DNA of 64,000 bases, taken from assembly GCF_030296935.1 (NCBI RefSeq), contig NZ_AP028032.1, positions 2,108,001-2,172,000 of the forward strand, in the 5' to 3' direction. Of the stretch, positions 26,704 through 44,160 are shown in pieces. The notes under the pieces were generated by a model. It made no database searches, was not told the origin of the DNA, and saw only the letters and a program-made list of their open reading frames with translations. The first letter of the stretch is position 1; each line of letters begins with the position of its first letter. Origin of the DNA: Coprobacter fastidiosus (GTDB taxonomy: Bacteria > Bacteroidota > Bacteroidia > Bacteroidales > Coprobacteraceae). A program made the translations under genes and the position numbers.

Positions 26704-27141
26704 TCAATCATCATAATCTATCAGGCGAAACTGCTTGTCAAATGTCAACTCTATACCACCTTTCAACTTCACTTCATACTCTTTCGTATCTTGTTCAAAC
26801 TTAATAACCGGTATATCCGGATGATTTTCCTTTAAATATTCAACAATCGGAACAGGAACAATACCGGCAGGAACCATACTGTATTTACAATCCACCTCTT
26901 TCAGATCGCCATATTTACGAAATTCGACTTTATTGCCATTCACGAAAATCACTTCATATTCCTGATCGAACCAACTCTTATCCACTTTTGCCAATGCAAC
27001 TTTCAGATCGGGAAAATATTTTTTGATAAATTGCTGGGCTTTAGCAGGTAGCTGATCCACACGAATAGGACGATCTTCTCTCGCATAAGTCGCAGTACTA
27101 AGGGTAAACAAACAGATAAACAGAACAAATAATTTTTTCAT
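26704..27141 (-). CDS. Periplasmic PepSY-like protein
   Basis: 145 aa with a signal peptide (MKKLFVLFICLFTLSTATYA) and two PepSY-like (DUF2874) repeats: LPAKAQQFIKKYFPDLKVAL...EYEVIFVNGNKVEF and VEYLKENHPDIPVIKFEQDT...YEVKLKGGIELTF. Members are small exported proteins often found beside two-component systems, as here; an inhibitory or sensory role has been suggested for PepSY domains generally. It lies 174 bp downstream of the histidine kinase on the same strand. Exact function unknown. Confidence 0.85.
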   Translation of the reverse strand: MKKLFVLFICLFTLSTATYAREDRPIRVDQLPAKAQQFIKKYFPDLKVALAKVDKSWFDQEYEVIFVNGNKVEFRKYGDLKEVDCKYSMVPAGIVPVPIVEYLKENHPDIPVIKFEQDTKEYEVKLKGGIELTFDKQFRLIDYDD

Positions 27142-27315
27142 AATCTCTTTTTTTCGTTTATAAAAAGACCTTTAACTCAACTGTCATACAACCGTTAAGA
27201 ATGACCTATGTGACAAAAATGAAACACAAATCTGAAATGAACTTGAAATAGAGACAGTAAAACAAACCGAAAGAAATTATCCAAACCGCCGACCCGAACA
27301 AAATTTGAACAGGTT

Positions 27316-28599
27316 CTAAGGCAGTTTATTCCATGAAAGGATAAAACGATGCTCTCCCCCGACATACCGATAATCGACCTCTATTCCATAATATTGTCCT
27401 ATAGCTTTAACAATAGCCAAACCCAAACCGGTCGATCCTTTCTTCTTAGAACCTTGATAAAAACGGTCAAAAATACGCTCTCCGTCTAAAGCTCCGGAAT
27501 CTGCACCGTTACAAAACATAATTCCCGAAGCGTCCGTTATGATACGGATATAACCATTGTCCGAATTGTGGACATAGGCATTCTTCAATAAATTCGTGAC
27601 AAGTGCCGTCGCTAATGACTCATTCATATCAACAATCAACTGAGAGCGCTTTTCCAATTCCACCTTTATGTTCCGGTAGCTATATATATCTTTGTACAAA
27701 TCCAGTTGCCGCTCCAATAATTCGTTCATATTTACAGAAACATTATCGGTAAACTGTCCGCTATCTATTTTAGAAAGGAACAAAAGAGATTTATTGAGGC
27801 GGACTATATACTCGATCGTCTGCCGGGTTTTCAAGATTTCGACCAATTGTTCCTCCGTAAGCTCGGTATTGTCCGTCAGCCATTCGAGACGGTTTTGGCA
27901 AACCGCCAACGGGGTCTGTATCTCGTGAGAAGCATTCCCGATAAACTGCTTTTGCTGATCGAAGAGCTGTTCGGTTCTTCTCGCATAACGAATCGCCGCA
28001 TCATTCAATTTTTTAAACTCCGATATCTTCGTATCATTTTTCAAAAGTTTGTTTTCTCCCCCGACAGTATAATCATCCAGCCAATGCAATAATGTATAAA
28101 GCGGACGCATACTCCGGTAAAAAACCCATGTGTTTATCCCGATAATAATCAACAATAAAGTAACATATAGCACGATGATCCAGTTCAGAATAGAATTACG
28201 CAAGTCTTCTTTCTCAAAAGAAGGTGTCGCTACAGTCAGCTCAAAATAAACACCCGAGTCATTTTGAAATATGGTTTTCAAGATTCTTGCCGGTTCGGTA
28301 TCTTGCAAACGGGGAATGTAAATTTTCGCATCCGTATAGCTGATAGCCGAACGGCTTTCGGCATATTCCCGGGTTACTTCTCTGATCTGATAACTGTTAT
28401 TCGACCCGTCACCTGATGAAAGTGTCTTCTCTCCTGCCAGTACCTGCATAATAATCATATCGGAATAGTTCTCGAGCGCATCATCCACCTCATCGTTAAT
28501 CTCCGTCTGCAATGCAAAATAAAAAAAGGCCGCCCAAGCCGTCAGTAAAATCACCAAGGCGACCGAAACCCGCAATATGATCTGATATATAAGCTTCAT
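27316..28599 (-). CDS. Two-component sensor histidine kinase
   Basis: 427 aa inner-membrane kinase. Two membrane segments (residues ~7-32 and ~138-160) enclose a periplasmic sensor loop of about 105 residues. The H-box is GNASHEIQTPL with the phosphorylated His225; N-box LVTNLLKNAYVHN; G-boxes IFDRFYQGSKKKGSTGLGLA. The gene begins 14 bp after the response regulator stop, so the two form an operon. Stimulus not evident; the neighbouring PepSY-like protein may be a target or accessory. Confidence 0.93.
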   Translation of the reverse strand: MKLIYQIILRVSVALVILLTAWAAFFYFALQTEINDEVDDALENYSDMIIMQVLAGEKTLSSGDGSNNSYQIREVTREYAESRSAISYTDAKIYIPRLQDTEPARILKTIFQNDSGVYFELTVATPSFEKEDLRNSILNWIIVLYVTLLLIIIGINTWVFYRSMRPLYTLLHWLDDYTVGGENKLLKNDTKISEFKKLNDAAIRYARRTEQLFDQQKQFIGNASHEIQTPLAVCQNRLEWLTDNTELTEEQLVEILKTRQTIEYIVRLNKSLLFLSKIDSGQFTDNVSVNMNELLERQLDLYKDIYSYRNIKVELEKRSQLIVDMNESLATALVTNLLKNAYVHNSDNGYIRIITDASGIMFCNGADSGALDGERIFDRFYQGSKKKGSTGLGLAIVKAIGQYYGIEVDYRYVGGEHRFILSWNKLP

Positions 28600-28613
28600 C
28601 CCACTATAACCGG

Positions 28614-29294
28614 TTATCCGGCAACGACAAGTTTATAACCGAATCCGTACACCGATTTTATTTCAATTTCAGCTCCCGCATCTCTCAGCTTTTTCCTCAG
28701 GTTTTTCATCTGCGCATATATGAAATCGAAATTATCCGCCTGATCGATATGATCGCCCCATACGGCTTCCGCCAATACCGATTTATCGACCAAATGACCG
28801 GGACGAAGAATAAAATAATACAATATATCATACTCTTTACGAAGCAGAGGCACATCAGCGCCATTTACCGATACTTGAAATTTATCGGGCGACACGACCA
28901 CATTTCCCAACTTGATCGTATTTTCTCCATTCCCGCGATTACGGCGCATCACACTTTTTATTCGTGCAGACAGTTCCGCCAGATGAAAAGGTTTCGCCAG
29001 ATAATCATCCGCACCTAAATCAAGACCCGACACCTTATCCTCTATCGAATCTTTTGCCGATATAATAATGACATTCCCCTGCTTTCGTAACGCTTTAAAA
29101 CGGTCGAGCAAATCTAAACCGCTACCGTCCGGCAGCATAATATCCAGTAAAATGCAGTCATAACTGTAATCTTCGATCTTTTGCAAAGCCTGACCGTAAG
29201 TTGCGGCAACCTCGACAACATAACGCTCTTTCTCCAATGTTCTCTGCATCAACTCTCTCAAAGAAGGTTCATCTTCGACAATCAGAATTTTCAT
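28614..29294 (-). CDS. OmpR-family response regulator
   Basis: 226 aa. Receiver domain (1-120) with acidic pocket E7-D8, phosphoacceptor D51 in CILLDIMLPDG, and Lys in AKPFHLAEL; C-terminal winged helix (130-223) with LLRKEYDILYYFILRPG and VDKSVLAEAVWGD. Partner of the kinase encoded directly downstream. A TATCTTTG box on the minus strand at 29384-29391 could be its promoter. Confidence 0.94.
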   Translation of the reverse strand: MKILIVEDEPSLRELMQRTLEKERYVVEVAATYGQALQKIEDYSYDCILLDIMLPDGSGLDLLDRFKALRKQGNVIIISAKDSIEDKVSGLDLGADDYLAKPFHLAELSARIKSVMRRNRGNGENTIKLGNVVVSPDKFQVSVNGADVPLLRKEYDILYYFILRPGHLVDKSVLAEAVWGDHIDQADNFDFIYAQMKNLRKKLRDAGAEIEIKSVYGFGYKLVVAG

Positions 29295-29495: not shown

Positions 29496-32045
29496 TTATC
29501 TTATTTCCAGAGTATCTTTAATAATCTCCATAAAAGAATATTGATATTCTACGCCTAATGTCGTATAATATTCCTTACAGAATGCATCATAAACACTTTT
29601 AGCAACACCTTTCTTACCTTGGGTACAGAGTATACGTATCTTGGTTGACAAAGCATTCTCATTGAGGTAATCATGTTGGAATAAAACATCAGATATTCGT
29701 ATTTTGAGGGGATCCGGTAAGTCTTCCTGTTTAAGTAAGTTACAAAGTAAATCAATTGTTTGGCTGGAGAAATCACTTTTAAACGTATCTACCCATTCTG
29801 TTTCAATATTAGGCAGCATCATTCCATGCAATAATAATTCCAATAATTGTTCAATATTATTATTGTTGCCATTTTTGTTATAGAGATATAATACTTCAAG
29901 ATAATCGCATGTAACATCGGTATCTAATTTTATGCTCCAAAATCCTTTCTGGTTAATAATTTTGATATCACCGATCTTTTCAAGTATGTTACGTAATTTG
30001 CTCATATATACATTACGGATATTTTGTGCGGCATCTTCAGGTTTTCCGGGCCATAACATTTGGATGAGTTTATTACCATTTATGCCTTTTTCACATTTTC
30101 CGGTATATAATATCAATGCTATAAGTAACATTTTCAGAGTACGTGTAAATAATAAGGTTATATCATTTCCCTCTTTATCTACAATGCGAAAGCCTCCCAA
30201 AAAACAGATGCATCGTTTCGAAAAATCATATTGCTTTGCAGAGAATATTTCTTCATGTATATTATTGACATCTAAATTATTATTAAGACTTGCCTTATAT
30301 TCGGGGGCAACCTTATGTTTTCTTTTCTTGATATAGATAATGTAGCTTAAGATCGCGATAGCAATAAGGGATAATAATATAATAATAGTTGCCCAATAAT
30401 TATGTGTTTGTGATGTCTCTTGCGTATTGTTGGTTTGTATAAAACTTGTTGCAGGAATTGGCGGGTAGTCTAATTCGTAAATTTCTACATAAGATTTTCC
30501 CGATACCTCAGCTTCATGTATGACTAAATATAGTTTATTTAATTGTCGGGAGAAATATATATTGGTATATAAATATTGTAAATCAAATTTTTTGCCTATG
30601 GGGAGTGACATCTTTTCAAAATGGGGATTGTCTCTATTTATTTTTATTAATACTCCTCCTTCTTGGGTGCAGAATACATAAAAACAATTATTGGCTTTAT
30701 CATAAATCATGTGTTCGCAAGGTTGGAATTCTCCTCCTTCTATTGGGGTGATATGTTGCCATAATCGGTGTACATTATAAGTCTTTAAATCAATAGCATA
30801 TAAATCATAATAATTTTGTGGAGATAATTCTTGCCTTCCGGATGGGCATCCTCGTCCGCCAAAAACATACAAAGTATCATTGACTATCACTGAGGCACAT
30901 GAATATCGTGGATCTATCTCTTTTAATATATATCTCTGTTGAGGCTTCGTATGGAACGGATAGCTGATCAAGAGTTCATTATTATAACGATAATGTCCAT
31001 ATCCTCCAAAACTAATCAGACTGGAATCTTCAGGGTTAAATACACAAGTATTGTTCCAATAATCATGGTCCTTTTGGGAGACTATATTATTGCCCCATCG
31101 ATGGCTGATAGGGTTCAACGATGAGTATATGTTCTCATCCAAGTTATATGAGAGAAGTTGATTCTGATCAGGGATAAACACTAATTGATTAGGATAATTT
31201 GATGCTATTTCTCCTCCTTTTATAGAAATTGTATCTGTTTTCTTTTCTCCAAGATGGTACACATATAAATTATTTTTATCCGTAGCCATATAAAAAGTCC
31301 CTATATTAGGATCAAACGCTATAGAAAGAGATGAATCGAACGTCGCGGAATATAATTTGTTCCAAGTTATGTATTGGTCGATAATCCAATGAGGGTTATA
31401 GGTAGTCGCAGGTTTGTAAAATAGCTCGTCATAACAAGTATTTCTGTCATGATGACCCAATTTCCATCTTCGTATTTCTTCTTTCCCTCTGTTGATAGTT
31501 ATGTCTTTGACATTGACTGATGCAACATCTGCTAAAGAAAAGTTTTCAAACGGACAATATCCAAAAGCGATTCGAACACTCTCGGTATCTTTCAATTCCG
31601 GAAATTTAATAAATGCGGAAGTCTTATCATAGATCAGGTTTATATCACCGGTCTTGGGGTCAATACTTATTGAGACGTTAACCCATACTCCTTTTTTTAC
31701 ATTCTCGTCAGAAAGAGGATGTACTGTTTTACCTGTGACTAAAATAGGGTAGCGCTTATCATTTTTATCAACGCTATATAATAAATCTATATTCTGATTA
31801 TTGTTGGTTATTATTCGGAATATGCTACCAAAAACATTTTCTTCTCTTGTGAATATACTGAAACTTAAAGTGAGTTTCTTTTGGAAAGTTCTTATCGGAT
31901 ACCCATTTTCTAATACGACACTGGTAAATTCGTCTTTGGGGTATGGATATGTTCGAATATATAACCCATACTCTTTTGGAGATGCAGCAATCGCCGTACA
32001 TATTGAAATAAACAAAAACGTTAATAAATTCAGTATGCTTTTCAT
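29496..32045 (-). CDS. Transmembrane kelch/SARP-like transcriptional regulator of the PUL
   Basis: 849 aa. Order seen: signal peptide (MKSILNLLTFLFISICTAIA); a LamG-like sandwich (~35-190, LTLSFSIFTREENVFGSIFR, WVNVSISIDPKTGDINLIYD); a kelch-type propeller (~210-530, LVFIPDQNQLLSYNL, SLISFGGYGHYRYNN, YVFGGRG); one membrane span (~550-571, IIILLSLIAIAILSYIIYI); a winged helix (~612-710, CFLGGFRIVDKEGNDIT, LWPGKPEDAAQNIRNVYMSK); and a C-terminal TPR-like BTAD segment (~715-849, ending ILCTQGKKGVAKSVYDAF...TTLGVEY). The last two resemble SARP regulators. It is divergent from a SusCD locus, so it probably senses a glycan outside the inner membrane and activates that locus. It is not a hybrid two-component system, SusR or anti-sigma factor. 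Confidence 0.8.
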   Translation of the reverse strand: MKSILNLLTFLFISICTAIAASPKEYGLYIRTYPYPKDEFTSVVLENGYPIRTFQKKLTLSFSIFTREENVFGSIFRIITNNNQNIDLLYSVDKNDKRYPILVTGKTVHPLSDENVKKGVWVNVSISIDPKTGDINLIYDKTSAFIKFPELKDTESVRIAFGYCPFENFSLADVASVNVKDITINRGKEEIRRWKLGHHDRNTCYDELFYKPATTYNPHWIIDQYITWNKLYSATFDSSLSIAFDPNIGTFYMATDKNNLYVYHLGEKKTDTISIKGGEIASNYPNQLVFIPDQNQLLSYNLDENIYSSLNPISHRWGNNIVSQKDHDYWNNTCVFNPEDSSLISFGGYGHYRYNNELLISYPFHTKPQQRYILKEIDPRYSCASVIVNDTLYVFGGRGCPSGRQELSPQNYYDLYAIDLKTYNVHRLWQHITPIEGGEFQPCEHMIYDKANNCFYVFCTQEGGVLIKINRDNPHFEKMSLPIGKKFDLQYLYTNIYFSRQLNKLYLVIHEAEVSGKSYVEIYELDYPPIPATSFIQTNNTQETSQTHNYWATIIILLSLIAIAILSYIIYIKKRKHKVAPEYKASLNNNLDVNNIHEEIFSAKQYDFSKRCICFLGGFRIVDKEGNDITLLFTRTLKMLLIALILYTGKCEKGINGNKLIQMLWPGKPEDAAQNIRNVYMSKLRNILEKIGDIKIINQKGFWSIKLDTDVTCDYLEVLYLYNKNGNNNNIEQLLELLLHGMMLPNIETEWVDTFKSDFSSQTIDLLCNLLKQEDLPDPLKIRISDVLFQHDYLNENALSTKIRILCTQGKKGVAKSVYDAFCKEYYTTLGVEYQYSFMEIIKDTLEIR

Positions 32046-32084: not shown

Positions 32085-32335
32085 ACTTTTCCTATAAATA
32101 AATACGAAAATTATCCGCGAATATTTTCTGCTTATTTCTATAAGAGCCTGTCGTACAACTTTATATAATAATAATATAATAGCAACAATTTTAGATACAT
32201 AGCGTATTTATTAATGTTTTTTTAAGGAAAATATTAAGGTCGCAAGCATACTTTTATCTCGAAATAACTCCGCTCAAATATTGAATTACAATGCCTTGAT
32301 TTCATTATTTTTTTCATTTATAAATTTAATCATGT

Positions 32336-34063
32336 ATGAATAAACACATTTTAAATGCGTTCCTATTAGGAACAATTATCCTTTCTTGTAATGGTTTTAC
32401 TTCGTGTAACGATGATGTTGATGAATTAAAATCTCGAATGTCTGTGGTAGAAATTGCCATTGATGATATTAAGTCGCAATTGCAGAATGCTCTTGTTACA
32501 GGTGCTAGTATAACGAAGGTAGAACAAAAAGACGACGGAAGTTGGAACATTACTTTAAGTAATGGGCAGACTATTGAAATTAAGAACCAGGCAGGAGGAG
32601 GTTCTAATATCTCTGTTGTAGTAACAGATACCAATGCAGTTATAACAATAGATGGTCAAGAATATATCCTTCCTTTAGGAGCATCTGTAAGTTCATTGGT
32701 ATATGTCCCTGAAACATTGGATGGTATCGTAGAAATCGGAAATGACGGTGCGGTCGTAAAATTTTTAGTAAGACCTTCATTAAATAATCTGGATGGTGCT
32801 GAGTTCTCTATTGCCGAGTCACATGCGGTAACCCGTGCAGGAGATGGTGAGCAGTTTAAAGTAAATGGTCAGGCAACTTTGGATAACGGATTCATTTCTG
32901 TTCCTCTTAAGGCTTTAAACGTTGAGGCCGGAAATCATTATGCAATCTCTCTGCAAATGAATATGCGTGGAACAGTCATAGGATCTAATTATTTCAATGT
33001 GCATATTGCCGAGGATTTTTCTTTTATCGGTGAACAAATCGGTGGTTATGAAATAAAATCAGAATATAACCCTGCCAGTTTGGACGAAAATTATAGTGAA
33101 ATGACTGTAAACGGTGTTACTCTATTAAAAAATTTGAATTTTAAGGACTTCTTCTCTCAATTACCGGAAAATGCAGAATTTAGAATTGCAGGTATAGATC
33201 AGCAGCCTGTCGGTGATGCGCAGAATAAATATACTCTGTTGGCAAACAGTTTGCAGAAAGATGGAACATGGGCATTTGCCGAAAGACCGGGAACAAGTTT
33301 TAATTCCAATCAAGACCGTCCCGGATTCTTGTTTAATATAGTATCCAATGATGTAGTAAAGGCCAAAATTTATTTGAAAATTATTGATGAATTGGCTGAT
33401 GTTGATTTTAATGCAGGTTTAAAACAAGCTGAAGCAGAATGGGGAGGTCGTGAAAAATCGCTGTCATTAGGAGCACAGACTATTGATATTCAAGCTACAT
33501 TTACTAACTATGAAAGTGATTATACAATAATTCATAGCGGAAAAGATGACTTCTTTGCAAAATGGTCAAGTATCGCTATTTCTACTCCTAATGAGGATAA
33601 CATTATTTATTGCGACGGAACTAAATTAGTTTTAGGAGATTTGGGCGCAGAATATGCTGCGAAATCTCGTGGGATTTATTGGTTCTATCGCGGATTTGCA
33701 ATTTATGTTCCTGAAACATTGGCCGTAGAAGATGGTAAATACATCGGGACAAATGGTAAATCTTATGCCGGAGGAGAAGGATATGATTATGATCTCTGGT
33801 TAGGCTCTTATAGTGAATATATCAATAATCCGACAACTTTCTATGATCCGGTTTCATCCTGGAATTTTAAGATTGATGAACAGACAGGTGTCATCACCCT
33901 TCCTGAAACATATACAGGCTATGGCTTCCGTATCGGTGTAGGTGCAGGATATGAATATGCTTATGGAGTCAAGAAGATAGGTGAAGCAGACCAATTCGGA
34001 TTATTCTTCTTTAATCGTCGTTTGGCTCCGGAAGGTGCTACAATGCCGGCTCCTAAAGAATAA
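32336..34063 (+). CDS. Surface lipoprotein with DUF4988 (PL29 N-terminal-type) coiled coil
   Basis: 575 aa; the start MNKHILNAFLLGTIILSCNG gives a lipoprotein-like signal. Residues ~28-60 form a coiled coil (DVDELKSRMSVVEIAIDDIK) followed by VTKVEQKDDGSWNITLSNGQ-like text, the DUF4988 pattern seen at the N terminus of surface glycan-binding proteins and PL29 lyases. The remainder is beta-rich with no recognised catalytic motif, ending in a domain with many aromatics (YWFYRGFAIYVPE, YGFRIGVGAGYEYAYG). First gene of the PUL, 38 bp before susC. Probably a surface glycan-binding protein; lyase activity is not supported. Confidence 0.72.
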   Translation: MNKHILNAFLLGTIILSCNGFTSCNDDVDELKSRMSVVEIAIDDIKSQLQNALVTGASITKVEQKDDGSWNITLSNGQTIEIKNQAGGGSNISVVVTDTNAVITIDGQEYILPLGASVSSLVYVPETLDGIVEIGNDGAVVKFLVRPSLNNLDGAEFSIAESHAVTRAGDGEQFKVNGQATLDNGFISVPLKALNVEAGNHYAISLQMNMRGTVIGSNYFNVHIAEDFSFIGEQIGGYEIKSEYNPASLDENYSEMTVNGVTLLKNLNFKDFFSQLPENAEFRIAGIDQQPVGDAQNKYTLLANSLQKDGTWAFAERPGTSFNSNQDRPGFLFNIVSNDVVKAKIYLKIIDELADVDFNAGLKQAEAEWGGREKSLSLGAQTIDIQATFTNYESDYTIIHSGKDDFFAKWSSIAISTPNEDNIIYCDGTKLVLGDLGAEYAAKSRGIYWFYRGFAIYVPETLAVEDGKYIGTNGKSYAGGEGYDYDLWLGSYSEYINNPTTFYDPVSSWNFKIDEQTGVITLPETYTGYGFRIGVGAGYEYAYGVKKIGEADQFGLFFFNRRLAPEGATMPAPKE

Positions 34064-34101: not shown

Positions 34102-37100
34102 ATGAAACATAAAAGACTAATAATAGGAAGCCCATATTTATGGAAAACTATGATGATACTATTTCTTTTCTGTTCATCGCTTCCTTCTTTCGCTCAGAAT
34201 AGAGCTCTACATGGTGTCGTCTTAGATACTTCTGGTGAACCGGTTATCGGGGCCAATGTGAGAGTGGATGGTAGTACTCGAGGTACTGTAACAGGCCTTA
34301 ATGGAGAGTTTGATATAAATGTCTCAAATAATGAGAAACTTACCATATCGTTTATCGGTTATTTAGATGCCGTAATTTCTGTCGGTAATAAACGAAATAT
34401 TAAGGTCATTTTGAAAGAGGATACCAAGACTTTGGATGAAGTGGTAGTGGTAGGATATGGAGTTCAAAAAAAAGCTACTTTAACAGGTGCCGTATCTGCC
34501 GTAACCAATAAAGAAATTACAGTTACCAAGAATGAGAACGTTGTCAATATGCTTACCGGTAAAATTCCGGGAGTCAGAATTTCTCAAAATAGTTCTCAAC
34601 CCGGTGAGTTTGATAACACCATTGATATTCGTGGTATGGGAGAGCCATTAATTGTTGTTGATGGAATTCCAAGAGATAAGGCATATTTTTCACGTATGGA
34701 TGCCAATGAGATAGAAAGCGTATCTGTTTTGAAAGATGCATCAGCTGCTATTTATGGTATCCGAGCTGCAAACGGTGTTATTTTGGTGACTACAAAACAC
34801 GGTGATAGCTCCGATGGCAAGTTTAACATTACATTTTCTGCAAATTACGGATGGCAACAATTCTTATATGTCCCGGAAACAGCAAGTGCAGTAGATCATA
34901 TGCTCCTTATCAATGAGAAAGGCTATAATTCATTCGACGGAAACTATCCTATCCGCACAACTCCCAAATATACTTGGGAGCAGATGATGGAATATAGTAC
35001 AGGGAAAAAACAGAGTACAAATTGGACAAACGAGTTGTTTGACAGCAATGTACCTCAGGAACAATATAATATCAGTATGGATGGTGGCTCGGACAGGATC
35101 AAGTACTTCTTCAACTTGGGCTATTTGAAACAGGAAGGTTCATATAAAAGCGGTTCTTTGAATTACGATAGATGGAATTTCCGTTCAAATATAGATGCAA
35201 AGATCACTAACCGTTTGAAAGCTACCGTTGCTTTGAGTGGTTATATAGATGAAAAGAATCAACCGTTTACTGATATTTGGGCAGTATATAAGAAGGCATG
35301 GACATTCAGACCTACATCGTCTGCATGGGTTGACGGTGACCACAGTCTGCCAGCGTATGATGATGAAATGTTGGACAGTGAAAATCCGGTGGCTGCAACA
35401 AATAGCGAATTTACCGGCTATCGTAGAGAAAAGCGGTACAATTTTAATGGATCATTAGCTTTGAACTATGATATACCTGGCGTTAAAGGTTTGTCTGCAA
35501 AAGCATTCTACAGTTATGATTATTATACAACGAATAATACAGAATATCGTCGTACTTATAAACTGTATAATAGAGGGGGAGATGGCGAATTACAATCATT
35601 CATTAGAAATAGTGACAGTTATTTGCGTAGAAATACGGATCCAAGATATGGAACCGTACTGCAACTTTCTTTGAATTATGCGAATAAGTTCGGTGATCAT
35701 AATGTAAGCGGTATGCTTTTGTTCGAGGAACAATATGATAATTGGGATAATTTTTATGCTCAGCGTGTGATGATGCTTGATGGAGATTATCTGATTTATG
35801 GTGAAGATGAAGAACAGGTCGGTTCAATGTCCGGTGCCGGTGATAAGACCAGAAAGGCTCTGGTTGGTAAATTCAATTATGACTATAAAGGTCGATACAT
35901 GGTTGATTTTTCTTTCCGTTACGACGGAACATCAAGTTTCCCTAAAGAATCTCGTTGGGGATTCTTCCCTGCGATATCTGCCGGTTGGCGAATAAGCGAG
36001 GAACATTTTATAAAAGAGGCGGTGCCATTCTTGACCAATTTAAAGCTCCGTGCATCTTATGGTGAAATGGGAGATGACAGCGGTGCAAATACATATCCTC
36101 AGACGCAAATTGCCTATAATATCAATAAAGATCAGATAGGTTATTTTTATAATGGGAAATTTATGGCAGGTGTTTCTGCAACATCGATCCCTAATCCGAA
36201 ACTGACATGGTATACAGCTAAAACATATAATTTGGGATTGGATTTTGACTTATGGAGTCAGAAACTTACCGGTACATTGGAATTATTTAAACGTAAACGT
36301 GAAGGCTTGTTAGCTACGTCATCGGCTGTTATTCCAGGTACTGTGGGAGCCTCTATGCCTCAAGAAAATATCAATAGTGACGAAACTTTCGGTTGGGAAA
36401 TCAGTTTGGGACACCATAACCGTGTAGCAAATATCGATTATTGGGTAAATACTCAGATTTCAGCAACTAAGAATCGTTGGGATTATCACTTGGACAGTCA
36501 AGCCGGTAACTCGATGGAGAATTGGTACCGTTCCGATGTATCAGGACGTAATAAGGATATTTGGTTTACATACGAAGAAGGCGGGCGCTTTACAAGTTAT
36601 GAAGAAATTCGGTATCATGGAACGACCGGTGCGAATTATAACCAAGGAACATTGCCGGGTGACTATTGGTATAAAGACTGGAATGAAGACGGTATCGTAA
36701 ATGATGCGGACAGACATCCTGTAGCCACATTTAATCTGCCGGTTTTCAACTATGGTATTTCTATGGGAGCATCATGGAAAGGCATTGACCTATCAATGAA
36801 TTGGCAAGGTGCTGCAGGTGTATATAATTCGTATAATGAAGTGTTTACAGAAGTCGGACCATTCAACGGTGGTGCAGTCCTTGACATGTATAAGGACCGT
36901 TGGCATACAGTAAATGTCAATGATGATCCGTGGAATCCTAATACTCAATGGGTAGAAGGATTGTATCCGGCTACGGGACATAGCTTTAACACAGGTTCGA
37001 CAGGTATACACAATACATCTTATATACGTCTGAAAACACTCGAACTCGGCTATACTTTCCCTAAAGTATGGATGAATAAGATCGGAGTAAAAAATCTGAG

Positions 37101-37269
37101 AGTATATGTAAATGCATATAACTTGTTAACCTTTAGCGGATTGGATAATATCGACCCTGAACGACCCGGATATCAAGGGGGAAGTAATAGTGGTAGTAGC
37201 AGTGGTATCCTTTACTATAATTATCCTGTAAATCGTACATTTAATATTGGTGCGACTATTAAATTCTAA
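34102..37269 (+). CDS. SusC/RagA-family TonB-linked outer membrane protein
   Basis: 1055 aa glycan importer. Signal peptide ending FAQN, carboxypeptidase-regulatory-like domain (LHGVVLDTSGEPVIGANVRV, ~35-110), the SusC signature DEVVVVGYGVQKKATLTGAV, plug with NVVNMLTGKIPGVRI and SVLKDASAAIYGIRAANG, then the 22-strand barrel ending TFNIGATIKF. It pairs with the SusD-like lipoprotein 15 bp downstream. In known systems SusC imports oligosaccharides held under the SusD lid. Confidence 0.96.
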   Translation: MKHKRLIIGSPYLWKTMMILFLFCSSLPSFAQNRALHGVVLDTSGEPVIGANVRVDGSTRGTVTGLNGEFDINVSNNEKLTISFIGYLDAVISVGNKRNIKVILKEDTKTLDEVVVVGYGVQKKATLTGAVSAVTNKEITVTKNENVVNMLTGKIPGVRISQNSSQPGEFDNTIDIRGMGEPLIVVDGIPRDKAYFSRMDANEIESVSVLKDASAAIYGIRAANGVILVTTKHGDSSDGKFNITFSANYGWQQFLYVPETASAVDHMLLINEKGYNSFDGNYPIRTTPKYTWEQMMEYSTGKKQSTNWTNELFDSNVPQEQYNISMDGGSDRIKYFFNLGYLKQEGSYKSGSLNYDRWNFRSNIDAKITNRLKATVALSGYIDEKNQPFTDIWAVYKKAWTFRPTSSAWVDGDHSLPAYDDEMLDSENPVAATNSEFTGYRREKRYNFNGSLALNYDIPGVKGLSAKAFYSYDYYTTNNTEYRRTYKLYNRGGDGELQSFIRNSDSYLRRNTDPRYGTVLQLSLNYANKFGDHNVSGMLLFEEQYDNWDNFYAQRVMMLDGDYLIYGEDEEQVGSMSGAGDKTRKALVGKFNYDYKGRYMVDFSFRYDGTSSFPKESRWGFFPAISAGWRISEEHFIKEAVPFLTNLKLRASYGEMGDDSGANTYPQTQIAYNINKDQIGYFYNGKFMAGVSATSIPNPKLTWYTAKTYNLGLDFDLWSQKLTGTLELFKRKREGLLATSSAVIPGTVGASMPQENINSDETFGWEISLGHHNRVANIDYWVNTQISATKNRWDYHLDSQAGNSMENWYRSDVSGRNKDIWFTYEEGGRFTSYEEIRYHGTTGANYNQGTLPGDYWYKDWNEDGIVNDADRHPVATFNLPVFNYGISMGASWKGIDLSMNWQGAAGVYNSYNEVFTEVGPFNGGAVLDMYKDRWHTVNVNDDPWNPNTQWVEGLYPATGHSFNTGSTGIHNTSYIRLKTLELGYTFPKVWMNKIGVKNLRVYVNAYNLLTFSGLDNIDPERPGYQGGSNSGSSSGILYYNYPVNRTFNIGATIKF

Positions 37270-37284
37270 TCAAAGGAATAGCAT

Positions 37285-39267
37285 ATGAAAACTTTTAAAT
37301 ATTTATTTATATTAGCCGCTTTGGGAGTCTCGATTACTTCTTGTAATGATCTGGAGCTGGAACCAAAAGGATTACTATACGAAAATGTTTTGTTTCAGTC
37401 AGACAATGGTATAAAGAAATATATGGCCCTTATATACCAAGATTTGCCTATTGAAGACTTCAATTATAAACAAAATGGTGATGAAAAAGGCTTTGCGACA
37501 GTCAATCAAGGAGGTTGGCATACCGGTAATAAATGGCAAGCCCAAAAAGGTAGCCCGGCTGCCGCTGGAGCAGAAGCTGCCGGTCGCGATCCTTCATATG
37601 GTGATGGTTGGGGATATTGGCCTTATGACAGAATCCGTGATATCAATAATTTCATAGAGAAACTTCCTGAATATCGTAGCTATTATACAGAAGAAGATTA
37701 CAATGCGTATATAGGAGAAGCACGTTTCTTACGCGCTTTCTACTATTTCGGTATCGTAAAAAGATATGGAGGAGTCCCTATTGTAGATAAAGTATTGGAT
37801 CCAAGTGCTCCGACGGCTGAACTCCAACAGCCGAGAGATACCGAATACGATTGCTGGAAGTTTATCTACAATGATTTGTTATATGCAATGAATAATGCAT
37901 CTGCATCCAAAGCTGAAATCGGTAGAGCAAATCGGTATGCTGCAGCGGCATTAATGTCAAGAGCGATGTTATATGCCGGAACAATTGCCAAATACGGAGG
38001 TTATGTCGGGACGACAGGTCCTGCAGTTACTGCAGGATTGATGGGAATCCCGTCGGACAAAGCGGCAGAGTTTTTCCAATATGCCTATGATGCTTGTGTG
38101 TTCTTGAAAAAAGCCGGTTTTACATTGCATACCGGGTCTGATAAGGAAAAAGCTTATCTTGAAACTTTCTTGATAGACAATGAAGAAGATATCTTTGTTA
38201 AACAGTATGGACCCAAGACGACTACTCCGGCAAACACGAGCTTGTTTCATTCTTGGGATACTATGATTTTACCGAGAGGTGAAGGTCTGGCCAGTGATGT
38301 CGGATGTGCTTTACAACCGGTTTGGGAAATGATAGGTTTATATGAAATGCCGGCAATAAAAGATGCAGAAGGTAAACCGATTCGCTTCAATAGTGTCGAT
38401 GAATTGTGGAATACAGACGAGATGGAAGCTCGTTGCCGTGCCAATTTCTTCTTTCCTGGCATGACCGAGTCTGTTTCCGGGGTTAGCATTGACATACGGG
38501 GTGGTGTATATAAGGAATATCCGGGTTTGGCAAGTGATGGAGAGTCTGAAATTCCCGGAAGTATTAACGATTATACTGACACTTACAGAGTAAGGGCAGC
38601 AAGTCCCGGTGAAACTCAAGTCATTAACGGACAATCTGTTCAAGTAAGTGGGAAGCATGGATTGGCCGAAGGAACCGGTGATGAAGGATATTCCCGTACA
38701 GGTGCGTTTATACGCAAATATGTCAATTATAATGCTGACGCATCGAGTAGAGTTCTGCATGGAAGTTCTCAGTCATGGAAAGTATTCCGTTACGGAGAGA
38801 TTCTGTTGAATTGGGCAGAAGCCGCTTATGAACTTGGACTCATCAAGAATGATAATAACCTAAAACGAGAAGCGTTTGATCATATCAACGAAATTCGTGA
38901 TAGAGCCGGTGCCCATCGCCATGATATGGTAGAAAGTCCGCAAGATATAGGTTCTGAAATTTATGGTTTCCCTATCGATGAGAATCTTCAGTATATCCGT
39001 GATGAGCGTGCTCGTGAATTATGTTATGAGAACCATCGTATTTTCGACTTACGTCGTTGGAGAGTTGCGGATATCATGTTCCAGAATGGTATGTATACTC
39101 ACACATTATTGCCATATTATGTAATGGACGAAAATAAGTGGATTTTCTTGAATGAAGTGGAACGTGAAGGACGTAAAGTAACGTTTGAAAAACGTTGGTA
39201 CTATGAACAGATTCCAAGTGGTGAAATCGGAAAGAATCCAAATTTGATCCGCAATGATGGTTATTAA
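37285..39267 (+). CDS. SusD/RagB-family nutrient-binding lipoprotein
   Basis: 660 aa; lipoprotein signal MKTFKYLFILAALGVSITSC (Cys 20). TPR-rich SusD fold: RDINNFIEKLPEYRSYYT, GEARFLRAFYYFGIVKRYGG, GRANRYAAAALMSRAMLYAG, and near the C terminus WAEAAYELGLI, INEIRDRAG, IRDERARELCYENHRIFDLR, which are classic SusD motifs. Somewhat longer than average. Acts at the cell surface as the lid of the SusC transporter encoded just upstream. Confidence 0.95.
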   Translation: MKTFKYLFILAALGVSITSCNDLELEPKGLLYENVLFQSDNGIKKYMALIYQDLPIEDFNYKQNGDEKGFATVNQGGWHTGNKWQAQKGSPAAAGAEAAGRDPSYGDGWGYWPYDRIRDINNFIEKLPEYRSYYTEEDYNAYIGEARFLRAFYYFGIVKRYGGVPIVDKVLDPSAPTAELQQPRDTEYDCWKFIYNDLLYAMNNASASKAEIGRANRYAAAALMSRAMLYAGTIAKYGGYVGTTGPAVTAGLMGIPSDKAAEFFQYAYDACVFLKKAGFTLHTGSDKEKAYLETFLIDNEEDIFVKQYGPKTTTPANTSLFHSWDTMILPRGEGLASDVGCALQPVWEMIGLYEMPAIKDAEGKPIRFNSVDELWNTDEMEARCRANFFFPGMTESVSGVSIDIRGGVYKEYPGLASDGESEIPGSINDYTDTYRVRAASPGETQVINGQSVQVSGKHGLAEGTGDEGYSRTGAFIRKYVNYNADASSRVLHGSSQSWKVFRYGEILLNWAEAAYELGLIKNDNNLKREAFDHINEIRDRAGAHRHDMVESPQDIGSEIYGFPIDENLQYIRDERARELCYENHRIFDLRRWRVADIMFQNGMYTHTLLPYYVMDENKWIFLNEVEREGRKVTFEKRWYYEQIPSGEIGKNPNLIRNDGY

Positions 39268-39294: not shown

Positions 39295-40020
39295 ATGAAA
39301 AAGACAATATATAGTATTCTGTTTGTTGCATCCGTGTTAGCAAGTTCTTCATGCATGAAAGTAGATAACTTTGATGCCCCTGAAGCTCATGTAACCGGCC
39401 GTATCATAGATAGTACTACAGGTGAAAATATTTTGGCAGACCAGGGCGAATGCAGAGTCCGTATCTGGGAGAAAAGTTTCAGCCTGAATCCTGCAAATCA
39501 GGATATTCCTGTGAAACAAGATGGTACATATAATAATTCAAAATTATTTTCCGGAACATACGATGTCGTTCCGGAAGGAGCCTGGTGGCCTTGTGATACT
39601 ATCCGTGTCGGGATTGGAAAGAAAACGGTAACTCAGAATTTTGAGGTAACTCCCTATCTGAAGTTAATAGATTTTCAAGTGAATCTGGAAGGCGAAAATC
39701 TTACGATGTCCTGCCGTCTGGATGCACCTATAACCGAGGGATTGCCACAAATAATGGAAGTCCGTCCATATTTGAGCTTAAATCAGTTCTGTGGAGCATC
39801 CAACTGCATTAACTATTATAATACCAATGATTTTAGAGTTAATGTGATGAAATCATGGGACAAGATCGAAAAAGAGGGAGATGGCAGAACTATTCCATTT
39901 GAGGTTACTGTTCCTGTAAAACGCGGATATATTTACTTTGTTCGTATGGGAGCAAAAGTTAAGGATTCGTTTGAAAAACATAACTATACCGAAATAGTAA
40001 AGGTCGAAGTGCCTCAGTAA
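39295..40020 (+). CDS. DUF3823 lipoprotein
   Basis: 241 aa; lipoprotein signal MKKTIYSILFVASVLASSSC (Cys 20). Two beta-sandwich domains: an N-terminal carboxypeptidase-regulatory-like part (AHVTGRIIDSTTGENIL, LFSGTYDVVPEGAWWP) and a C-terminal Ig-like part (LKLIDFQVNLEGENLTMSC). It matches DUF3823, commonly the third gene after susCD, and is thought to be a surface glycan-binding accessory. 27 bp after susD. Confidence 0.88.
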   Translation: MKKTIYSILFVASVLASSSCMKVDNFDAPEAHVTGRIIDSTTGENILADQGECRVRIWEKSFSLNPANQDIPVKQDGTYNNSKLFSGTYDVVPEGAWWPCDTIRVGIGKKTVTQNFEVTPYLKLIDFQVNLEGENLTMSCRLDAPITEGLPQIMEVRPYLSLNQFCGASNCINYYNTNDFRVNVMKSWDKIEKEGDGRTIPFEVTVPVKRGYIYFVRMGAKVKDSFEKHNYTEIVKVEVPQ

Positions 40021-40100
40021 TAGACATATTAAAGTTAATAAAATTCGATTCGGGAAAGGAGAAATCTTTTCCCGAACGTAAAAAAAACGAATAGTTGCTT

Positions 40101-41579
40101 ATGAAATTGAAATATAATTTATACATATTTTGGGCTGTAATAGGCTTGTGCTGTATTTCTTGTAGTAATAAAGATGATGACCATATCCCTCCTGCCATTC
40201 AAGAACCGGAAAAACCGGCAGCTCCTGAAATCTATAATGATTTAGGATTTACACCCCACGTAGATGGAGAACCCTTCAATACTTATCGCGGGTTGGTTAT
40301 GGCCGGATATCAAGGATGGTTTGGCGCTCCCGGTGATGGATGTCCGCACAGTGACCATTCCAATACCGCATGGTACCATTATCGTGAAAACGACCGCTTT
40401 GAACCCGGAGTTTTGAGAAATTCAATTGATTTTTGGCCAGATATGAGTGAGTATGAAACTCAATATACTCCCGGCAAATTTATTCTTCCTAATGGTGAAA
40501 AAGCGACAGTATTCAGCTCTTATGATGAATCTACCGTTATGTTACATTTTAAATGGATGAAGGATTACGGATTAGATGGTGTCTTTATGCAGCGATTCGT
40601 AGGTGAAGTTATAAATAATCCTGACGGAAAAGCACATTTCAATAAAGTACTGGCTTCTGCAATGAAAGCGTCAAATCAGTATCAGCGTGCTATTTGTGTC
40701 ATGTATGATTTGGGAGGATTTATGTCTGATAATACTCGTAATGCAGATGCTGTTTTGGCCGATGCACAGGAAATATTGGATACATATCGATTGAAAGACA
40801 GGAATGTGCAGAAATACTATTTGTATGAAAACGAGAAACCGCTGATCGTATTATGGGGCGTCGGATTTAACGATAATCGTCCTTATAACATGAATGATGT
40901 AGAGCAACTGATGAATGGACTGAAGGAAAAAGGTTTCAGTATCATGTTGGGAGTTCCGACTTATTGGAGAGAAAGAAGAAATGATGCAATACCAGATGCC
41001 AAACTACATGACCTTATCAAGATGGCTGATGTGATTATGCCTTGGTTTGTCGGAAGGTATGGGAAAAGTGATTATTCTAACTTCCATAATTTGATTCAGC
41101 AAGATATTGCATGGTGTAAAGAAAATAATGTAGCCTATGCTCCTTTATGTTTTCCAGGCTCTTCAGACCGTAATATGCACCCGAATAATTCGATTAATCC
41201 GCGTTACGGAGGCCAATTCTTGTGGGATCAGATGTATTTCTGTATCAAGTCCGGTGCGCAAATGTTGTATATTGCCATGTTCGATGAAATAGACGAAGGT
41301 ACAGCTATTTTCAAATGCTTGAATGAAAGTGATGTGCCAAGCAATGAAGCTGAAGACGATTATTATGTTGTATATCAAAATAATAGTTATCGCATGACTC
41401 AATCTAAGGTAGAAGTGACCGGGGCTAATGAATGGTGTCAGTTGGCTAAGGATCTAAAGGTTAAATTTCAGGGAGTGGAAGACGGGCTTCCGACAGACCA
41501 TTATTTATGGCTTACCGGGCAAGGTCGCAAGATGCTTAGAGGAGAGGTTCCTTTGAAGTCATCCTGGCCGGCAAGATAA
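40101..41579 (+). CDS. Glycoside hydrolase family 71/99-like lipoprotein (copy 1)
   Basis: 492 aa from the ATG at 40101 (a TTG two codons upstream also opens the frame). Lipoprotein signal MKLKYNLYIFWAVIGLCCISC. TIM-barrel enzyme of the GH71/99-like group: YRGLVMAGYQGWFGAPGDG, FSSYDESTVMLHFKWMKDYG, DGVFMQRFVGE, GVPTYWRERR, ADVIMPWFVGRYG, and MFDEIDEGTAIFKC. The E396-x-x-E399 pair has the spacing of the two catalytic Glu residues in GH99 endo-alpha-mannosidases. Surface or periplasmic. It is followed by a paralogue, suggesting duplication and specialisation within this PUL. The precise linkage cleaved is unknown. Confidence 0.85.
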   Translation: MKLKYNLYIFWAVIGLCCISCSNKDDDHIPPAIQEPEKPAAPEIYNDLGFTPHVDGEPFNTYRGLVMAGYQGWFGAPGDGCPHSDHSNTAWYHYRENDRFEPGVLRNSIDFWPDMSEYETQYTPGKFILPNGEKATVFSSYDESTVMLHFKWMKDYGLDGVFMQRFVGEVINNPDGKAHFNKVLASAMKASNQYQRAICVMYDLGGFMSDNTRNADAVLADAQEILDTYRLKDRNVQKYYLYENEKPLIVLWGVGFNDNRPYNMNDVEQLMNGLKEKGFSIMLGVPTYWRERRNDAIPDAKLHDLIKMADVIMPWFVGRYGKSDYSNFHNLIQQDIAWCKENNVAYAPLCFPGSSDRNMHPNNSINPRYGGQFLWDQMYFCIKSGAQMLYIAMFDEIDEGTAIFKCLNESDVPSNEAEDDYYVVYQNNSYRMTQSKVEVTGANEWCQLAKDLKVKFQGVEDGLPTDHYLWLTGQGRKMLRGEVPLKSSWPAR

Positions 41580-41687
41580 ATCTGTGTATTTGTCCTACTG
41601 CTTGGTTTCTATGATCAGGCAGTAGAACAAATCAAGTTAAAAAATAAATAGTCGATTGTTGTTCTAAATCTGTAATATAATTGATTG

Positions 41688-42989
41688 ATGATATATTCTG
41701 TTACTAAAAAATATTGTAGTCTCAAGACATGTAGAATCCGGATAAGCATATTCCTTTTATTTAATGGTTTTGTATTAAGTTTGTCTGCATCTCCCAAGCA
41801 TGCAGCAGATACAAATTATCCGTCTTATCACGGACTTGTTATGGCCGGGTATCAAGGATGGTTCCATAAACCGGAAAAAGGAATGATGTATCCTGATGAG
41901 AAGAATGTGCGAATTGACATGTGGCCTGATGTAAGTGAATATCCAGAAACTTATCCAACAGGTCTGAAACATGCCGACGGTTCTACTGCACGATTCTTTT
42001 GTTCTTCCGACGAGAGTACTGTAGACCTCCATTTCCGTTGGATGAAAGAGTATGGAATAGACGGTGTCTTTATGCAGCGTTTCTTCAACGCTGCCCGTAA
42101 AGATAACACAAAAGGGAATGCTGTTATCAGTCATGCCTTTAAAGCAGCTTCCAAGTATAACCGCGCAATCGGCATCATGTATGATTTGTCAGGGCTGAAA
42201 GCTCATGGTGAGGATTGTTCATCTTTGATTGAAGACTGGAAATTCTTAGTCGATTCTTTAAAAGTTACAAATCAGGACGGAGCTCATACTTATATTTTCC
42301 ATAATGGAAAGCCATTGGTTACAATTTGGGGAGTAGGTTTTCCTGACAGACCTTACGATATTCGGGACATCGGCCTGAAACGTTTTATAGATTTTTTATG
42401 TAATGATCCCGAGTATGGAGGATGCAGCATTATGTTGGGAGTACCTACCTATTGGCGTGAACTTGGTGCCGACTGTGTGCATGATCCTTATTTGCATGAA
42501 ATTATCCGCGAAGCAGATTTAATTATGCCTTGGATGGTACAAAGATTTACTCCTTTGTTGCATAATGACATGGATCGTTATCGCGATGTTATACTGCGTG
42601 ATATGTCATGGTGTAAGGAGAACGGTATAGAATACGTTCCTTGTGTTACACCCGGATTCAGTTGGCATAATTTAAGTCGATATGCATTTCCGGACGACGT
42701 TAAACCATCCGGTTCAATACCTCGCCAAGGTGGTCGTTTTTATTGGCAGCAGATCTCTACGGCCATAAACTGCGGTGCCAGAATGCTGTATATAGCTATG
42801 TTCGATGAAGTGAATGAGGGCACGGCTATCTTTAAATGTACTGATAATCCACCGGTAGGCAAGAATATTCAATTTGTGGGAATGGACAATATGCCTTCTG
42901 ATCACTATTTATGGTTGACAGGAGAGGCTTCGTTAATTCTCAAGGGGAAGAAATCCTTGACATTTACATTGCCCAAGCGTCCGCATTAA
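41688..42989 (+). CDS. Glycoside hydrolase family 71/99-like enzyme (copy 2)
   Basis: 433 aa from ATG 41688; the reading can also open at TTG 41685. Hydrophobic N-terminal signal (IRISIFLLFNGFVLSLSAS) without an obvious lipobox, so probably periplasmic whereas copy 1 is a lipoprotein. Shares GLVMAGYQGWF, SSDESTVDLHFRWMKEYG, DGVFMQRFF, GVPTYWREL, ADLIMPWMVQRF and MFDEVNEGTAIFKC, with the Glu pair E374 and E377. Same strand, 108 bp after copy 1. A surface-plus-periplasm division of labour with copy 1 is an inference. Confidence 0.85.
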   Translation: MIYSVTKKYCSLKTCRIRISIFLLFNGFVLSLSASPKHAADTNYPSYHGLVMAGYQGWFHKPEKGMMYPDEKNVRIDMWPDVSEYPETYPTGLKHADGSTARFFCSSDESTVDLHFRWMKEYGIDGVFMQRFFNAARKDNTKGNAVISHAFKAASKYNRAIGIMYDLSGLKAHGEDCSSLIEDWKFLVDSLKVTNQDGAHTYIFHNGKPLVTIWGVGFPDRPYDIRDIGLKRFIDFLCNDPEYGGCSIMLGVPTYWRELGADCVHDPYLHEIIREADLIMPWMVQRFTPLLHNDMDRYRDVILRDMSWCKENGIEYVPCVTPGFSWHNLSRYAFPDDVKPSGSIPRQGGRFYWQQISTAINCGARMLYIAMFDEVNEGTAIFKCTDNPPVGKNIQFVGMDNMPSDHYLWLTGEASLILKGKKSLTFTLPKRPH

Positions 42990-43182: not shown

Positions 43183-44160
43183 ATGAAAGTTTTACACACT
43201 ATTGGAGCTTTATGCTTTATTGGTTGCATGATGTCGTGCCAGTCGGTCAAGAATAAGATTACAGAAAAAAGTGGTATAGACAGCTTGGCATCCAACCCTT
43301 TTATTACGCATATGTATACAGCAGACCCTTCGGCGCATGTATGGGAGGATGGAAGACTTTATATCTATGCATCCCACGATATCGATCCTCCACGGGGATG
43401 TGATCTGATGGACCGTTATCATGTCTTTTCTACCGATGATATGGTACATTGGACAGATCATGGAGAGATACTGAATTCATCTCAGGTTGCTTGGGGGCGT
43501 AAAGAAGGAGGTTTCATGTGGGCTCCCGATTGTGCCTATAAAAATGGAACTTATTATTTTTATTTCCCGCATCCGAGTGAAACGGCTTGGAATGATTCCT
43601 GGAAAATCGGAGTGGCAACCAGTCGGTATCCTGACCGAGATTTTAAAGTTCAAGGATATATAAAAGGTATGGATTCATTGATCGATCCGTGCGTATTTAT
43701 TGACGATGATGGACAGGCCTATATATACCATGGAGGAGGTGGTATATGTAAAGGCGGAAAGCTTAAAGATAACATGATGGAACTGGATGGTGAAATGCTC
43801 CGAATGGAAGGATTGGTAGATTTTCATGAAGCACCATGGGTACATAAATATAACGGAAAGTATTATCTGTCATACTCGGATAATCACGATGAAAATATGA
43901 ATGATGGAGTCAAAGGTGATAACCGAATGCGTTATGCTATCAGTGATAGCCCGTTGGGACCATGGAAACATCAAGGTATCTATATGGAACCTACCGACAG
44001 TTATACAAATCATGGCTCTATTGTAGAATATAAAGGCGAATGGTTTGCTTTCTATCATAATAGTGCATTGTCTAATCATGATTGGTTGAGATCCATTTGT
44101 GTAGACCGATTGTATTATAATGAAGATGGAACTATTCAGATGGTAAAGCAAAGAAAATAA
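43183..44160 (+). CDS. Glycoside hydrolase family 43 lipoprotein
   Basis: 325 aa; lipoprotein signal (MKVLHTIGALCFIGCMMSC). Five-bladed propeller of GH43 with the expected acids: D48 (TADPSAHVWEDG, general base), D168 (LIDPCVFIDDDG, pKa modulator) and E216 (FHEAPWVHKYNG, general acid). Also GGFMWAPDCAYKNG and TNHGSIVEYKGEWF. GH43 enzymes act on arabinofuranosides, xylosides or galactofuranosides; the specific activity cannot be told. Single-domain length without a C-terminal sandwich. Last gene of the PUL, followed by a strong terminator. Confidence 0.9.
   Translation: MKVLHTIGALCFIGCMMSCQSVKNKITEKSGIDSLASNPFITHMYTADPSAHVWEDGRLYIYASHDIDPPRGCDLMDRYHVFSTDDMVHWTDHGEILNSSQVAWGRKEGGFMWAPDCAYKNGTYYFYFPHPSETAWNDSWKIGVATSRYPDRDFKVQGYIKGMDSLIDPCVFIDDDGQAYIYHGGGGICKGGKLKDNMMELDGEMLRMEGLVDFHEAPWVHKYNGKYYLSYSDNHDENMNDGVKGDNRMRYAISDSPLGPWKHQGIYMEPTDSYTNHGSIVEYKGEWFAFYHNSALSNHDWLRSICVDRLYYNEDGTIQMVKQRK

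Follow-up and report, generated by a model that had tools for sequence, protein, structure and literature searches.

The window analysed here, a 64-kb stretch of DNA, contains on its reverse strand a gene for a predicted regulator of 849 residues (29496..32045 (-)), and the open reading frame is real, with 22 homologs that could be aligned to it over the whole length and further ones recovered via the output module. The genome (3.44 Mb, one contig) carries six full-length members of this family, the other five being 35-38% identical to the window protein. From its N-terminus, the protein is composed of a signal peptide (residues 1-22, 31980..32045, with a hydropathy peak at residues 4-22), an all-β domain (residues ~24-222, 31380..31976), a kelch propeller (residues ~223-531, 30453..31379), a transmembrane helix (residues 554-572, 30330..30386), a winged helix of the OmpR/SARP type (residues ~611-709, 29919..30215) and a BTAD-like helical domain (residues ~711-844, 29514..29915), all encoded on the (-) strand. 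The all-β domain and the propeller are N-terminal to the single transmembrane helix, and the module with the SARP fold is C-terminal to it. Judged only by the signal peptide, the hydropathy and the basic residues, the side bearing the propeller is predicted to be periplasmic. Genes for a histidine kinase and a response regulator of the OmpR type (26704-29294) adjoin the regulator gene on the same strand, and a small exported protein (26704-27141) is encoded next to this pair.

The kelch propeller proposed in the preliminary description is borne out by several comparisons: Pfam kelch models match all 22 aligned homologs, the profile of the middle region retrieves solved kelch propeller chains from the PDB at 2e-21, and the corresponding part of the ectodomain model (model residues 200-508, protein residues ~223-531) matches Muskelin and LZTR1 with Z scores of 16.2 and 15.2, respectively, in a model of low confidence (pLDDT 57.5). 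The AlphaFold2 predictions used 3-row alignments, which yielded a good model of the output module and a poor one of the ectodomain. A single transmembrane helix had likewise been predicted correctly, as residues 554-572 have a hydropathy of 2.9 and are followed by the basic stretch KKRKHK, and a hydrophobic segment in the same position followed by basic residues is present in 21 of the 22 homologs by the hydropathy cut-off used. The exported, LamG-like N-terminal region fared less uniformly: an all-β fold is indeed predicted, but the LamG label is unproven, since the sole profile match in the PDB is to neurexin (E=0.09), the Laminin_G_2 model matches one of the 22 homologs and a profile comparison with real LamG domains was negative. 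No kinase, receiver or AraC domain was matched in the window protein by the domain-model search, and no viral relatives of the regulator were found. DUF6377, considered as a link to other membrane regulators, was discarded, the only gene matching it genome-wide at E<=0.001 being a hybrid histidine kinase; the window protein's own match to this model is weak (E 0.014) and covers the transmembrane region.

The output module (residues 600-849) was modelled by AlphaFold2 with a pLDDT of 85.7 and a pTM of 0.78, and the predicted structure consists of an OmpR-type winged helix, located after the transmembrane helix, followed by a BTAD-like helical domain. A Foldseek search of the PDB initiated with this model returned six matches below E 0.001, every one of them an AfsR or EmbR chain, and a second structure aligner superimposed the module on AfsR with a Z score of 15.5 over 231 residues and on EmbR with a Z score of 14. 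The next matches score at most 7.8 and are for the most part isolated winged helices or proteins with helical repeats; among them, the winged helix matches TcpP with a Z score of 7.8 and ToxR with 6.4. Since the matches to AfsR and EmbR span the whole domain and lie far above the next ones, the earlier assignment of a winged helix with a TPR-like tail of SARP type is right by fold. At the level of sequence, the profile of the module detects only the winged helix (PhoB-type and SaeR, E 0.016-0.06), no curated Pfam model of SARP or BTAD reaches its cut-off on the window protein or its homologs, and a search of the genome with the BTAD model gave nothing at E<=0.001; the BTAD model touches one of the 22 homologs, at 0.037, and a model of AfsR gives 0.055.

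The module resembles those of AfsR of Streptomyces and EmbR of Mycobacterium in the winged helix and BTAD fold across the whole domain. Unlike in these proteins, the module of the window protein is located at the C-terminus, preceded by a kelch sensor and a transmembrane helix, and it shares little sequence similarity with them; its family goes with a TTAAYC heptamer and is tied to glycan loci. We have not filed the regulator as a SARP because the SARP module is N-terminal in a soluble protein and is recognized by curated BTAD/SARP sequence models, neither of which holds here. SARPs have been reviewed as exclusively actinobacterial (PMC10972967), whereas the present family occurs in Bacteroidales and elsewhere in their phylum. 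Nevertheless, the regulator likely works like a membrane-tethered SARP.

Family members were found in 15 of 295 Bacteroidales genomes, in six of the 296 genomes of a phylum-wide sample and in 41 of 101 genomes of one taxonomic family. Among the six paralogs of the source genome, identity is 54% in the winged helix, 45% in the BTAD-like part and 34-35% in the two sensor domains, and a better conserved output than sensor is as expected for one output that serves varied ligands. Variants are also present: members that lack the kelch propeller are encoded at L040:5059-6594 (511 residues) and L084:9181-10620 (479 residues), with others of ~512-530 residues in genomes G961 and G928; two family members lie side by side at L044:8324-12818; and at L045:7901-10458 the regulator gene is in two open reading frames, which could be a frameshift or a real split.

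Divergent from the regulator gene in the window is a predicted target operon of the order DUF4988-susC-susD-DUF3823-GH99-like-GH99-like-GH43, all on the (+) strand. It starts with a DUF4988 gene of lipoprotein type (32336..34063, assigned by domain model) and continues with the susC (34102..37269, TIGR04056, 863.6 bits) and susD (37285..39267, PF07980) genes of the neighbouring susCD locus that had been recognized from the outset, a DUF3823 gene (39295..40020, assigned by domain model), two GH99-related genes (40095..41579, PF16317 below cut-off at 3.6e-5, and 41685..42989) and a GH43 gene (43183..44160, PF04616; solved GH43 enzymes are annotated as β-xylosidases and others). In the best match of the second GH99-related protein, DEVNEG aligns with the NEWHEG of a solved GH99 enzyme, the motif that holds the catalytic pair. 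Both GH99-related genes have TTG starts as called and are distant from curated GH99, and this group of enzymes recurs beside the family.

The promoters beside family members contain a candidate operator. The idea of an 11-bp spacing came from a single locus (L089), in which three direct repeats precede the susC operon. In the discovery set, the 42 kb of intergenic sequence near the family contain 11 copies of the exact motif TTAAYC-N5-TTAAYC and the 85 kb of control sequence contain two, of which one (L038) lies in the promoter region of a SusC gene at a family locus. As the motif had been suggested by this discovery set itself, an independent set was tested, comprising 40 loci of another taxonomic family and 20 control regions, none of which had been used for the motif, and here the exact motif was found eight times near the family and not once far from it. 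When the first set alone was used to train a heptamer matrix, and three copies at 11 or 12 bp were required, arrays were detected in 37 of 143 nearby as against one of 196 distant intergenic regions of the independent set, and in 32 of its 40 loci (p=1.6e-14). With the spacing instead fixed at values of 8-10 or 13-17 bp, as a control, there was no excess of arrays near the family. The loci are partly orthologous; grouped at 50% identity, the regulators form 15 clusters, of which 12 have an array. Most arrays lie in the intergenic region that adjoins the regulator gene, commonly 50-250 bp upstream of where the neighbouring gene starts. Boxes of the Bacteroidetes -7 type (TAnnTTTG) are over-represented within ~30 bp of the arrays, and 14 of 26 SusC promoters near the family have an array, as opposed to none of 15 in controls. 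The paralog locus L028 has more arrays, upstream of a GH99-like gene and in the gap that separates two GH2 genes of divergent orientation, and no TTAA triple was found near the paralog loci L027, L030 and L031 of the same genome. Promoters beside the family are strongly enriched in arrays, usually of three TTAAYCN heptamers at a spacing of 11-12 bp, a geometry that recalls published SARP operators, in which heptamers with 4-nt spacers lie ~11 bp apart, three of them in that of PimR (PMC5930380).

It is very improbable that these arrays belong to some other regulator with 11-bp repeats, for example a PhoB-type response regulator, and accompany the family by mere proximity. Such a reading could appeal to the Pho-box-like look of similar arrays in some control regions and to the OmpR type of the response regulator next door, but arrays occur in 65 of 276 intergenic regions near the family as against nine of 413 in pure controls, and the excess sits at the regulator's own neighbouring promoters in many genera. 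The background of the array search includes two control regions (L119:7592-7786 and L126:11864-12194) with TTAACC repeats at 11 bp that resemble Pho boxes. Palindromes of the AAACGNNCGTTT type, conserved beside the promoter box TATATTTG in intergenic DNA of two orthologous loci (L027:11287-11592 and L047:6500-6751), were also considered as a family site and rejected, as they are absent from the other intergenic regions inspected and probably belong to another regulator.

In the window itself, the predicted operator (TTAATGT-N4-TTAAGGA-N5-TTAAGGT, 32211..32240 (+)) reads TTAATGT-TTTT-TTAAGGA-AAATA-TTAAGGT, has the same strand as the target operon, whose first start codon follows 95 bp downstream; no other TTAA triple with a spacing of 11-12 bp exists within the 64 kb. 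This site is a variant of the family motif, with a low score of 5.0 on the general matrix, and rests on a TTAANG form of the heptamer. When the intergenic region was shuffled 4,000 times, TTAANG triples never arose and generic TTAA triples arose in 61 of the shuffles, and in 2.66 Mb of other DNA TTAANG triples were confined to loci of the regulator family. The recognition-helix region of the window protein (NIRNVYMSKLR) differs from that of most family members, a divergence that would fit the altered heptamer.

The genes near family members include those for GH92, GH125, GH99-like, GxGYxYP, GH3 and sulfatase proteins. Among the matches listed, GH92, GH99 and GH125 together account for at least 10 of 72 immediate neighbours, compared with at least two of 80 in random regions of the carrier genomes (p=0.01). 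GH99-like genes occur at seven of 37 family loci and at none of 40 controls (p=0.004), and four of the six in the source genome are within ~12 kb of a family regulator. For SusC, 18 of 37 loci in the first set had a gene within 8 kb as against 12 of 40 controls, a difference that is not significant (p=0.07), and in the second set 27 of 40 loci had one within 6 kb as against six of 20 controls (p=0.006). Some family members have no susCD next to them. A link of the family to glycan loci is supported by the operator arrays in adjacent promoters together with the GH92, GH99-like, GH125 and SusC neighbours. These over-represented neighbours also weigh against a different reading, in which the regulator senses something other than an imported glycan, such as a cell-surface polymer, a peptide or a partner protein (for example, a periplasmic enzyme), and glycan genes are one kind of target. 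In favour of this reading, proteins are frequent ligands of kelch propellers, SusC is lacking within 8 kb at many loci, and kelch-less members such as that of L084 lie beside genes for a DcuC-type carrier, an amidohydrolase and a carboxypeptidase; even so, we hold it to be rather unlikely. The neighbours at L084 (the carboxypeptidase being of the M14 type) recur in part at L086, where the family member is nearly full-length, and therefore another substrate class may be involved there.

Several known membrane regulators resemble the window protein in part. ToxR, TcpP and CadC similarly combine a single transmembrane helix with a cytoplasmic winged helix of the OmpR type and a sensor outside; the winged helix of ToxR is N-terminal. 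In the window protein this order of cytoplasmic winged helix, transmembrane helix and periplasmic domain is reversed, and ToxR, TcpP and CadC have neither BTAD nor propeller. The HTCS of PULs also drive PUL transcription from a large periplasmic sensor that contains propellers, as is predicted for the window regulator, which unlike them is without kinase, receiver and AraC domain. The preliminary description had regarded a one-component transmembrane architecture as distinct among PUL regulators; this does not hold, as SusR, too, is a one-component protein crossing the inner membrane, and has a periplasmic sensor and a cytoplasmic DNA-binding domain (PMC3878776). What is new is therefore the kelch sensor, together with a SARP-like output module and an array spaced at 11-12 bp. 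SusR and the window regulator have in common this topology (predicted here), a location that often adjoins susCD, and direct-repeat sites, but the predicted SusR repeats are 67 or 77 bp apart between centres (PMC3878776) as opposed to the 11-12 bp observed here, owing to which we do not file the window regulator as SusR-like. The DNA-binding domain of SusR was described as unlike other known ones (PMC3878776), and the window regulator differs from SusR in sensor, output module and operator spacing.

Based on the domain order, the SARP fold and the operator arrays, we consider it probable that the protein is a membrane-tethered, one-component, SARP-like regulator, which activates the adjacent glycan locus and would sense in the periplasm an oligosaccharide imported by SusCD. 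The propeller side would face the periplasm and bind this oligosaccharide, and binding may rearrange the regulator or pair it with another copy. Adjacent heptamers could then be occupied, on a single face of the DNA, by two or three SARP modules, whose BTAD-like part would recruit RNA polymerase to the adjacent operon, which here extends from the DUF4988 gene to the GH43 gene. The same protein and operator could conversely serve in repression, the unliganded form keeping the glycan operon off until ligand frees it. This we judge improbable: arrays that often overlap or abut promoter boxes are compatible with repression too, but SARP/BTAD proteins with such a fold and operator geometry are known activators (PMC5930380, PMC10972967), and SusR is an activator as well (PMC3878776).

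An activator of this kind, seated in the inner membrane with a periplasmic kelch sensor and with an operator of three heptamers that is legible in the sequence, on balance appears to represent an undescribed class of PUL regulator in Bacteroidota, in which lineage expansions match many loci to many glycans. In the open-access literature searched, no regulator of Bacteroidota with a kelch or SARP part was found, though this does not prove that none has been described. If the reading is true, PUL control gains a class beside SusR, HTCS and ECF/anti-sigma systems, and a SARP-type output would exist outside Actinobacteria under a transmembrane sensor. As the operator is recognizable from sequence, the regulons of orphan glycan loci would then be predictable, and the modular design would offer new glycan-responsive switches for laboratory strains.
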